A stretch of DNA of 64,000 nucleotides, from the NCBI RefSeq assembly GCF_040546585.1, contig NZ_JBEPOC010000001.1, positions 1,116,001 through 1,180,000 of the forward strand, written 5' to 3'. Source of the DNA: Marmoricola sp. OAE513 (GTDB lineage Bacteria; Actinomycetota; Actinomycetes; Propionibacteriales; Nocardioidaceae). Shown in pieces: positions 55,655-58,892 of this stretch. The position numbers and the translations under genes are program-made. The notes under the pieces were generated by a model. That model was given only the letters and a program-made list of their open reading frames with translations, did not search any database and was not told the origin of the DNA. Position 1 is the stretch's first letter, and every line of letters starts with the position of its first letter.

Positions 55655-56776
55655 ATGACGACTCTACGCAGCCAGGCCGTCCTCGAGCGCGAGAACGCCG
55701 CCGAGGCTCCCGCTGCGCGTCGCCAGCCCCGGCGCCGCGAGCCCTGGTTCGACAACATCAAGATGGTGCTGGTCACCCTGGTCGTGGTCGGCCACGCCTG
55801 GGCAGTCGTGCCGAGCTCGCCGACCAACGACTGGGCCTACGACTTCCTCTACTCCTGGCACATGCCGGCGTTCGCGATCATCACCGGCTACTTCTCCCGC
55901 CGGTTCTCCTGGACCCCGGAGCGCCTCCGCTCGCTGGTGACCACCGTGGCGGTTCCGTACCTGATCTTCGAGGCCGCGCTCGCCTACTACCGCGAGTGGC
56001 TCGGCGGCGTCCGGATCAACGACCTGTTCGCGGACCCGCACTGGCCGATGTGGTACCTGGCGGCTCTGTTCTTCTGGCGGCTGAGCGCACCGCTCTTCCT
56101 GGCGGTCCCGCGGTGGGCGGCTCTCGGCGGCGCCGTCGCGATCAGCATCACCTCGGGGCTGTGGGTCGGGGAGACCCTCGACGGCCCGCGCATCCTGGGC
56201 ATGCTGCCCTTCTTCGTCCTCGGTCTGCGGGTGAGCGACCGCGACTGGGCACGGCTGCGCTCGCCGAAGGCCGTTCCGTGGGCTCTCGTCGGCATGGCGG
56301 CGCTGCTGGTCCTCGCCCGCTACACCGACGCCTGGCTCGACACGGAGTGGTATTACTACCGCACGACCTACGACCTGCTGCAGCCCGACGCCGTGCTGGC
56401 GATGGCGACCCGTGCCGCGGTGCTCGCGATCGGGCTGGTGGGTGCGGCCTCGGTGTTCGCGCTCGTCCCCCGCGGCAGGAGCTGGTTCAGCACGCTCGGG
56501 TCGGCCACCCTCGTGGTCTACCTGTTCCACGGCTTCGTGCTGCTCTTCGCCCGCTACCACGGCTACCCGGAGTGGGCTGCTGACCACCTCGGCCTCTCCT
56601 TCGCGATCGCGACCGCGGCGGGCGTCGTGCTGGCACTGCTCCTCGCCGCCCCTCCGGTGGCGCGACGACTCAACGCGTTCGTCGACCCGATCGGGTGGTG
56701 GGAGAAGCGTCGGGACCGGCACCAGACCCCGCGCGAGAGCGAACCTCGGGAGCCGGCGGCCACCACGTCGGGGTGA
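55655..56776 (+). CDS. Acyltransferase-3 family integral membrane protein
   Basis: The 373-residue protein has about ten membrane helices. It begins, after a basic N-terminus, with EPWFDNIKMVLVTLVVVGHAW, the acyltransferase-3 opening with the catalytic-type His, and SWHMPAFAIITGYFSRR follows. This family O-acylates surface sugars or other exported molecules. The start codon is directly back to back with the Nudix start (55654/55655). The last 107 bp are antisense to the convergent PlsC-like gene and encode a charged, poorly ordered tail. Confidence 0.85.
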   Translation: MTTLRSQAVLERENAAEAPAARRQPRRREPWFDNIKMVLVTLVVVGHAWAVVPSSPTNDWAYDFLYSWHMPAFAIITGYFSRRFSWTPERLRSLVTTVAVPYLIFEAALAYYREWLGGVRINDLFADPHWPMWYLAALFFWRLSAPLFLAVPRWAALGGAVAISITSGLWVGETLDGPRILGMLPFFVLGLRVSDRDWARLRSPKAVPWALVGMAALLVLARYTDAWLDTEWYYYRTTYDLLQPDAVLAMATRAAVLAIGLVGAASVFALVPRGRSWFSTLGSATLVVYLFHGFVLLFARYHGYPEWAADHLGLSFAIATAAGVVLALLLAAPPVARRLNAFVDPIGWWEKRRDRHQTPRESEPREPAATTSG

Positions 56777-57527
56777 CCGCGCTGGTCGGTACGACGTCGA
56801 GGGCCCGTGCTTCCTCGCGCGTCGGGGCGTGGCCTCCCAGGTGCGCCGGGTACCAGGTCGCGTGCTCGCCCGGACGCGGCACGTGCTCCGGCATCCGCTG
56901 CAGACCCTCCAGCATCCCGGTGAGTGTGGCTCCCAGACGCTGCGTCTCCGCGATCAGGTCCGCACCGGGTGGCACCTGCCACGGCGCCCCGAACTCGATG
57001 TCGACCCGCCGACCACGCGTCAGGTCGGGCGGCGGCTCGGGCACGCCGACCGAGAAGATCCGCTGCGAGCCCCAGATGGCGACGGGGACCAGCGGTGCGC
57101 CGGTCTCACGGGCCAGCGCCACGGCACCACGCATCAGCGAGCGGACCGTGAAGGAGTAGCTGATCCCGGCCTCGGGGAAGACGCCCACCGCCTGGCCGGA
57201 CTGCAGCAGCCTCCGGGCCCTCAGGTACGCCGCGACGGGGACGGTCCGGTCGACGGGGATGTGGCCCATCCGGTCCATCGCCCACGCGATCGGGCCGGGC
57301 TTCCACACGTCGTACCGGGTCATGAAGCGGACGTAGCGTGCGCGGTCGACGGCCGCCTTCTCGATCATGATGAAGTCGAGGTAGGAGACGTGGTTCGCTG
57401 CGAGCACGACGGGGCCGGTGGCGGGCAGGTTCTCGAGCCCGTGGGGGTGCACCCGGACGTCGAGGGCGCGCAGGGCTAGGCGGCCCAGGGCGTTGATGGC
57501 TTTGTAGGTGCGGTCCACGGTCGTCAT
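56670..57527 (-). CDS. PlsC-like 1-acyl-sn-glycerol-3-phosphate acyltransferase
   Basis: The 285-residue protein starts at the ATG at 57527 (MTTVDRTYKAINALGRLALR). The longer frame runs into an inverted repeat. Acyltransferase motifs are present: AANHVSYLDF (H-x4-D), block II near RYVRFMTRYDV, VGVFPEAGIS (block III) and APLVPVAIWG (block IV). It transfers a fatty acyl chain to a phospholipid precursor at the membrane. The C-terminal 40 residues are Pro/Arg-rich and overlap the convergent acyltransferase-3 gene by 107 bp. It lies 93 nt after the flavoprotein gene. Confidence 0.88.
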   Translation of the reverse strand: MTTVDRTYKAINALGRLALRALDVRVHPHGLENLPATGPVVLAANHVSYLDFIMIEKAAVDRARYVRFMTRYDVWKPGPIAWAMDRMGHIPVDRTVPVAAYLRARRLLQSGQAVGVFPEAGISYSFTVRSLMRGAVALARETGAPLVPVAIWGSQRIFSVGVPEPPPDLTRGRRVDIEFGAPWQVPPGADLIAETQRLGATLTGMLEGLQRMPEHVPRPGEHATWYPAHLGGHAPTREEARALDVVPTSAVTPTWWPPAPEVRSRAGSGAGPDASPTTRSGRRTR

Positions 57528-57552: not shown

Positions 57553-57625
57553 GCTGACCTGGCACCTTTGTGCAGGTGCTCCCCCGCTGCGCTCCTCCCC
57601 ACCTGCACAAAGGTGCCAGGTCAGC
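57553..57625. repeat. Perfect 26-bp inverted repeat with 21-nt spacer
   Basis: The left arm (57553-57578, beginning GCTGACCTGGCACC) and right arm (57600-57625, ending GGTGCCAGGTCAGC) are exact reverse complements over 26 bases. The spacer is pyrimidine-rich on the plus strand. Each arm also contains its own short palindrome (GCACCT-TTGTGC-AGGTGC in the left). The right arm includes the stop codon of the upstream flavoprotein gene. The left arm ends 25 nt before the PlsC start. It could be a terminator, attenuator or a dispersed palindromic element of REP/MITE type. Confidence 0.9.
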
Positions 57626-58892
57626 TGAAAGGCGGGCGGTGGTCGAGCTTCACGCTGCGGCGACCGGCCCAGCGCCACACCCGGGCGGACCGGTCCCGGT
57701 CCTCCTCGGTCACCAGGTTGCCCATCCAGCGCAGCGCCAGCGTCATCATCCAGTCCGAGCGCATGCCGACAGGTCCCAGTGCGGCGAGCGCCCGCGGCAC
57801 CGTGACGATCCCGGCCAGACGACGGGCGATCGAGAACGCCTCGCCGTAGTGCTCGCGGAGCAGCGTCGGCCACACCGTGGCGAGGTCCTCGTCCAGGACG
57901 TCGACGACCAACCGGCCCGTCTCCAGGCCGTAGTCGATGCCCTCGCCGTTGAGCGGGTTCACGCAGGCCGCGGCATCGCCGATCAGCGCCCAGTTCGGAC
58001 CGGCGACGTTCGAGACCGCGCCCCCCATCGGCAGCAGTGCCGAGGTGGGCATGCGGATGTCCCCGCTGAGCTGGAAGTCCTCGCGGCGCTGCTCGGCGTA
58101 GTGCTTCATCAGCGGCCGCAGCGCCACCTCGGCCGGACGCTTCGCGGTGGCCAGCGTGCCCACACCCAGGTTCACCGAGCCGTCGCCGAGCGGGAAGATC
58201 CACCCGTAGCCCGAGAGGATCTCGCCCTGCTCGCCGCGGAGCTCGAGGTGCGAGCTGATCCAGGGGTCGTCCGACATGGCCGAGTCGATGTAGGAGCGGC
58301 CGGCGACGCCGTACACCGTGTCCCGGTGCCACTCACGTCCGAGGACCTTGCCGAGCCCGGAGCGGACACCGTCCGCCACCACGAGCCGGTTGCAGGCGAT
58401 CTCGACCCGCTCCCCGTCACGGCCGTCGAGCTCGAAGACGACCGCAGCGACCTTTCCCCCGTCCATCCGGACGTCGACCGCGCGGGCACCGTCGATCGCG
58501 GTCGCGCCCGCCTTGATCGCGGTGGTGCGGAGGTGGTCGTCGAGCTCGGTACGCGCGACCGCCGACCCGTACGCCGGCAGTCCGGTCCCGGACCGGCCCG
58601 GACCGGGCCACGGGAGCAGCAACGTCTGCCCGAAACCGTGCGCGCGCAGTCCGTGGTTGACCGTGTGCGCCGTGATCCAGTCCTCGAGGCCGAGGCGGGA
58701 GAGCTCGGCGATGGCACGCGGGGTGAGCCCGTCACCACAGGTCTTGTCGCGCGGGAAGACGGCGGCATCGACGATCACGGTGTCGCGTCCAGCCCGCGCG
58801 GCCCAGGTCGCCGCCGAGGAGCCTGCGGGGCCGGCGCCGACGACGAGCACGTCGGTGCGGGTGGGCCCGGAGAAGGACGGCTGGGTGGTCAC
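57621..58892 (-). CDS. Geranylgeranyl reductase family FAD-dependent oxidoreductase
   Basis: The 423-residue protein has an N-terminal FAD motif, VLVVGAGPAGSSAA (about 15-28). The family signature FPRDKTCGDGLTPRA follows near residue 46. The second FAD contact is ALIGDAAACVNPLNGEGIDYGLETG (about 300-325). In actinobacteria these enzymes reduce isoprenoid chains, for example one double bond of the menaquinone side chain (MenJ type) or geranylgeranyl lipids. The start is a GTG at 58892. It is the first gene of a two-gene unit with the PlsC-like acyltransferase, so a membrane-lipid role is likely. Its stop lies in the inverted repeat. Confidence 0.85.
   Translation of the reverse strand: MTTQPSFSGPTRTDVLVVGAGPAGSSAATWAARAGRDTVIVDAAVFPRDKTCGDGLTPRAIAELSRLGLEDWITAHTVNHGLRAHGFGQTLLLPWPGPGRSGTGLPAYGSAVARTELDDHLRTTAIKAGATAIDGARAVDVRMDGGKVAAVVFELDGRDGERVEIACNRLVVADGVRSGLGKVLGREWHRDTVYGVAGRSYIDSAMSDDPWISSHLELRGEQGEILSGYGWIFPLGDGSVNLGVGTLATAKRPAEVALRPLMKHYAEQRREDFQLSGDIRMPTSALLPMGGAVSNVAGPNWALIGDAAACVNPLNGEGIDYGLETGRLVVDVLDEDLATVWPTLLREHYGEAFSIARRLAGIVTVPRALAALGPVGMRSDWMMTLALRWMGNLVTEEDRDRSARVWRWAGRRSVKLDHRPPFS

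Follow-up and report, generated by a model that had tools for sequence, protein, structure and literature searches.

A perfect inverted repeat at positions 57553-57625 of the 64-kb stretch of DNA analysed here (the window) is probably a non-autonomous member, in minimal form, of a family of dispersed repeats, M1, and would be moved in trans by a nuclease carrying an AbiEi-type region, thus behaving as a REPIN- or foldback-like element; we would give this reading about two chances in three. The link between the repeats and the nuclease gene is strong, and we infer that the nuclease mobilises them. In what follows, G000 denotes the source genome, other G-numbers its 57 relatives and L-numbers individual loci.

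The hairpin between the flavoprotein and plsC genes

The left arm (GCTGACCTGGCACCTTTGTGCAGGTG, 57553-57578, forward strand) is complementary at 26 of 26 positions to the right arm (57600-57625, reverse strand), with a loop of 21 nt between them (57579-57599). From base composition, arms of 26 bp are expected about 3e-8 times by chance in 64 kb. This is the longest perfect hairpin of the window, the runner-up having 14 bp, and also the longest in 860 kb sampled from the 3.89-Mb genome, where the next perfect one has 22 bp. Folded as RNA it reaches -67.8 kcal/mol (z = -6.6), and an imperfect palindrome, ACCTG-GCAC-CTTT-GTGC-AGGT, lies inside each arm. The surrounding host DNA, whose 69.6% G+C and gene content suit an actinobacterium, carries two minus-strand genes: upstream, a flavoprotein gene (57621-58892; FAD_binding_3, geranylgeranyl-reductase-like, 423 aa) whose TGA stop codon (57621-57623) lies inside the right arm, where the hairpin starts, and downstream a PlsC-like acyltransferase gene (56670-57527; 285 aa; PF01553, E 6e-25). 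Neither arm is followed by a run of T, the U-tract of an intrinsic terminator, on either strand. The earlier note had thus described the structure correctly from the letters alone: the exact arms and gap, the smaller palindrome in each arm, the enclosed stop codon, the missing U-tract and a length far beyond that of other local hairpins. A search of Rfam with the hairpin returned no match, and no clear target-site duplication was seen at the site, which is bordered on each side by just 2 bp, GC, themselves palindromic.

As an exact sequence the arm stands alone. A 22-nt arm has no second copy in the source genome with up to three mismatches, is absent from the 57 relatives with up to two, and does not occur in exact form in GTDB contigs; a looser two-arm pattern matched 15 times in GTDB, always in unrelated phyla and never in actinobacteria. 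The loop, GGAGCGCAGCG, was also considered as a common element and rejected, being at chance level in the window and matching the genome at places without corresponding stems.

The flavoprotein and plsC genes have remained neighbours in 15 relatives, none of which has the hairpin. In the four nearest relatives the stop codon is 25-47 nt from the plsC start and a leader, GCATCCG...GTGTCGA, is conserved, which in the source genome directly follows the hairpin; about 68 nt have therefore been gained in the source genome between the stop codon and the plsC leader. An unrelated 12-bp hairpin occupies the orthologous junction at L043. The comparison of loci with and without the element, proposed in the earlier note, thus finds an empty orthologous site and an element that is not conserved in place.

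The M1 repeats and the nuclease gene that they bracket

A stem-loop scan of the same 860 kb revealed further hairpins with the common outer sequence CGCTGACCYGGCA...TGTGCA. The M1 pattern, GCYGACCYGGCANNNATGTGCA with one mismatch allowed, was searched in all 58 genomes and is present 52 times in the source genome, five times in the congener G007 and in none of the 56 others, a backward-pattern control giving no match. Both arms of the window hairpin fit this pattern with one mismatch. The forward core unit (GCTGACCTGGCACCTTTGTGCA, 57553-57574, forward strand) shows no mismatch to GCTGACCYGGCANNNNTGTGCA and one to the stricter GCYGACCYGGCANNNATGTGCA, and the reverse core unit (57604-57625, reverse strand), likewise a match to the pattern, is the one that holds the flavoprotein stop codon; the deviation from the M1 consensus falls on variable inner bases, which read CCTT instead of the NNNA of other copies. 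Dispersal, a point on which the earlier note had asked for a genome search, is accordingly found for the degenerate arm motif and not for the exact arm, which is unique in the genome.

M1 copies occupy about 15 sites and one gene-bearing locus in the source genome. Nearly all belong to ordered forward-then-reverse arrays, in which a spacer separates one to four forward units from one to three reverse units, with a period of 31-32 bp, mostly intergenic and abutting stop codons. They are thus dispersed inverted doublets in extragenic space, as in REPIN/RAYT systems. The innermost units resemble each other more within an array than between arrays (2.1 vs 4.5 differences, p 0.0002). The window copy has the minimal 1+1 form, one of three such copies with 29, 29 and 30 nt between cores, and shares with the family its unit, a spacer of the 10.5-bp series described below, contact with a stop codon and absence from relatives without the enzyme.

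At the gene-bearing locus (G000:C1:3319627-3320835), which has era on one side and an ABC transporter gene on the other, forward and reverse M1 arrays enclose a gene for a 316-aa protein (G000:C1:3319798-3320745), and G007 displays the same bracketed arrangement at its era-ABC locus with its own repeat variant. The protein matches AbiEi models over residues 24-180 (PADLOC, E 1e-14), and its C-terminus weakly matches two Vsr-type nuclease models, MTES_1575 and DUF559. Among 17 homologues, AbiEi models match all and MTES_1575 matches 11, the Pfam nuclease match being weak for each protein. E209, D243, E254, G257, H261, D269, R272 and R273 are invariant over the 17, which is what an active PD-(D/E)XK-type enzyme would be expected to show; MTES_1575 itself is a Vsr-fold nuclease according to PMC3710099. 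No relatives of the enzyme were detected in viral contigs and two in plasmids, weak and partial; no related solved structure was found. The gene-bearing copies contain no known transposase, a marginal IS110 match appearing in single members only, and the neighbours identified at the era-ABC locus include no AbiEii toxin gene. Two distant AbiEi-like genes of the source genome (L281, L282) are without such arrays. Of 30 enzyme genes (L158-L187), 23 also have a DnaA-box-like (TGTGGATAA) motif, CCTGTGGA(T/C), 50-112 bp ahead of their start, in the stretch that separates it from the left array; the motif lies downstream in two of the 30 and occurs in 1.2% of random windows.

Enzyme-repeat pairs and the spacing of their units

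The left and right 350 bp of the enzyme gene were compared for 30 homologues, 29 of them testable. Flank-to-flank inverted repeats with a score of at least 19 were present at 19 of the 29 enzyme loci and at 0 of 229 controls (0/29 plsC-type loci and 0/200 random intervals), and the sequence of the flanking unit differed from one enzyme gene to another. Repeats read off these flanks, M2 to M5, were then searched in the 58 genomes, and together with M1 the enzyme-repeat pairing extends to five families. M2 was found 121 times in G000 and 95 times in G012 and at most once elsewhere, M3 51 times in G013 and 37 times in G018 and at most once elsewhere, M4 140 times in G002 and at most once elsewhere, and M5 21 times in G043 and 62 times in G056, two genomes of another family, and at most twice elsewhere. 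In the enzyme tree the M1, M2 and M3 pairs each form a clade with 100% support, repeat type thus tracking enzyme clade. M1 and M2 enzymes and repeats all occur in G000, which therefore has two enzymes and two repeat populations. The M5 partner enzyme of G056 was not located, and the M5 array at 341811 in that genome encloses no enzyme gene. The array period is 22 or 33 bp in other lineages, compared with 32 bp for M1. The M5 arrays of G056 at L273 and L274 (33-bp period) were seen to enclose further palindromes with the common inner sequence GGATTCCGACGAATGAATGCAAAGT.

Likeness of the innermost units was also observed within the M2 arrays of G012 (p 0.0004) and was not significant in those of G000. 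According to a simple gene finder based on codon usage, 60 of 65 M1 and M2 arrays are intergenic, most of them 0-10 bp from a stop codon, and about 45% lie between convergent genes against a background of 18%, and 6% between divergent genes, again against 18%; the same gene finder mis-typed the window gene pair, whose real arrangement is tandem.

At orthologous sites the families can differ: M2 in G012 corresponds to M1 in G000 at L208/L151 and L248/L141, both genomes carry M2 at L209/L244, and the G000 orthologues of further G012 M2 sites hold unrelated palindromes. Two explanations offer themselves: gene ends may be hot spots, or one array may replace another at the same position. L087 (G000:C1:1300001-1320000, orthologous to L220) carries a tandem palindromic unit of about 100 bp (GGCGATTGAGCCGAGAGACGCATAAGCGCACAAACGC...) in the place taken by an M2 array in G012, and L092 (orthologous to L214) a REP-like palindrome, GGTTGAGGTGC...GCGGGCCTCGAAACC, again at the position of a G012 M2 array. 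A second abundant dispersed palindrome of G000, CCGGTCGTCGAGCTTGCCGAGA...TCTCGGCAAGCTCGACGACCGG, was recorded at L017:15095-15142, L023:10281-10345, L095:19331-19406 and other places. In different species, enzyme genes are found at the same few conserved loci, mostly with different repeats (L165, L167, L169, L170, L171 and L172; L163, L166 and L184; L161 and L185), through either vertical inheritance with concerted repeat change or repeated insertion at one place.

The innermost forward and reverse units of an array are separated by preferred distances: -2, 8, 19, 29 and 30 for M1 (one exception, 2), -1, 9, 21, 31, 41, 42, 52 and 62 for M3 (one exception, 70) and mostly 5-6, 14-18, 35-36, 47 and 57 for M2. 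Among periods of 5-16 bp the best fit for these three families is 10.5 bp, and none of 3000 uniform simulations was as good when distinct lengths only were counted; phasing is weaker for M4 (p about 0.01-0.03, best period 11.1) and not clear for M5. In the window copy the loop corresponds to a core-to-core distance of 29 nt, a value that falls on the 10.5-bp series of the other M1 elements. Two proteins meeting face to face on a double helix need such phasing, whereas an RNA or single-strand hairpin does not, and the quantised spacers thus argue, from sequence, for recognition of the sites as double-stranded DNA, with the proteins on one face of the helix. For AbiEi and Rv2827c, PMC7319586 describes one monomer on each 23-bp repeat and inverted repeats with gaps of 3 or 13 bp, two spacings that again differ by one helical turn.

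A mobile-element model, its alternatives and known systems

We propose that each 22-24-bp unit would be bound by one AbiEi-type domain and that inverted units on one helix face would bring two enzymes together. The nuclease domain might then cut at or near the array ends, and array pairs could reach new sites by copying or transfer, with a preference for gene 3' ends, in a REPIN- or foldback-like manner, gene-less arrays such as the window copy being moved in trans. More generally, we lean slightly towards the view that AbiEi-Vsr fusions serve a so far undescribed class of bacterial mobile elements as their enzymes; the terminal inverted repeats would be phased arrays of AbiEi sites, and each enzyme lineage would drive its own genome-wide population of gene-less arrays, which would replace or crowd out, at gene ends, the arrays of other lineages. 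Movement of arrays was not seen, nor was a clear target-site duplication. The occurrence of M1 in one genome and M2 in the other at orthologous G000/G012 sites could alternatively reflect conversion of arrays in place, which counts against mobility. The deviating inner bases of the window unit, the array-free genes L281 and L282, the weak nuclease matches, the M5 partner not located in G056 and the fainter phasing of M4 and M5 likewise tell against the model.

The arrays might instead be dispersed operators of the AbiEi-nuclease that serve the host or the enzyme, in autoregulation, as road-blocks or insulators at gene ends or as a mark of self, and that spread by recombination or gene conversion without mobilisation by the nuclease. 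Known AbiEi proteins are autorepressors acting on tandem 23-bp inverted repeats (PMC7319586), 10.5-bp phasing suits cooperative protein binding, and the arrays are found on both sides of the gene, at stop codons and enriched between convergent genes. Autoregulation, however, leaves unexplained the 15-30 distant sites per genome, the two-sided arrays and the empty orthologous sites, and the invariant nuclease residues also speak against operators, so that we consider this explanation unlikely, albeit one to be taken seriously. A local bidirectional terminator or attenuator that arose in place is considerably less probable. The very stable RNA fold, the position at a stop codon and the similar location of the other families at gene 3' ends would suit it, but the family is dispersed and linked to an enzyme, the U-tract is absent and the spacers are helically phased. 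The window copy may still serve as a secondary terminator; the earlier suggestion of an attenuator for the acyltransferase finds no support, spacers that follow the DNA helical repeat being needless for a single-strand hairpin.

Uniqueness of the exact arm in the genome, its absence in relatives and the perfection of the arms would suit a product of template switching, a one-off palindrome without kinship to other repeats. This origin is very improbable given that both arms fit the M1 unit with one mismatch, a pattern seen in 0 of 56 other genomes, and that their 29-nt core spacing recurs in two other 1+1 copies (29 and 30). Hardly any credence is left for a classical REPIN that a RAYT, a tyrosine transposase of the HUH type, would move by way of single-strand hairpins. 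The gene-end location, the dispersed inverted pairs and the single-copy partner gene beside arrays are as described in PMC3116915, yet the only models matched by the bracketed gene are AbiEi and MTES_1575/DUF559, not a Y1 transposase, spacers quantised at 10.5 bp are a double-helix constraint, and multi-unit phased arrays are unlike REPINs. The earlier comparison with a REP-like or miniature mobile palindromic element consequently holds for the dispersed motif and the empty orthologous site, whereas the linked gene is of AbiEi-Vsr type and not the RAYT that had been anticipated.

Our preferred reading, that of an M1 element mobilised by the AbiEi-nuclease, shares features with several known systems. 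Type IV toxin-antitoxin AbiE (AbiEi/Rv2827c) has the same type of N-terminal region and inverted sites of about 23 bp whose spacings differ by one helical turn, but here a C-terminal nuclease is on the same chain, no AbiEii gene was seen beside the loci listed, and the sites are genome-wide and on both sides of the gene. The MTES_1575/DUF559 Vsr-like nucleases, whose models match the C-terminal domain of the partner enzyme, are known from giant HEPN/helicase conflict proteins for which the relevant part of PMC3710099 reports no repeat arrays. In openly licensed papers we found neither AbiEi joined with DUF559 nor a description of such arrays combined with such an enzyme, although an earlier description may exist. 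Terminal inverted repeats made of tandem short units, and gene-less copies outnumbering gene-bearing ones, recall foldback transposons (FB/Galileo) and MITEs; those elements are eukaryotic and have DDE-type transposases and target-site duplications, none of which is shown here.

If the model is true, it would provide a function for a large group of hypothetical proteins annotated as AbiEi or DUF559 and account for one class of palindromes found between the genes of actinobacteria; with a separate enzyme-repeat pair in each genome, specificity lends itself to binding assays and domain swaps of a simple kind. REPIN/RAYT is the well-known example of bacterial palindromes that are dispersed and served by a chromosomal enzyme of their own. 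It resembles the present system in its short inverted pairs dispersed at gene ends, in a partner gene on the chromosome with copies of the repeat on its flanks and in comprising several independent pairs of enzyme and repeat, every pair with a sequence of its own. It differs in that its partner is an HUH Y1 transposase and not an AbiEi-Vsr-type nuclease, and in that the M1-type arrays have tandem units on each side with spacers in helical phase, which suggests double-stranded recognition. Since no known kind matches it in all defining features, the M1-nuclease system is set apart here as a new kind; with REPIN-like selfish palindromes taken as one broad kind, it could equally fall inside that kind. 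As a second, unrelated enzyme class with a REPIN-like architecture, it would show that this life style has evolved more than once.
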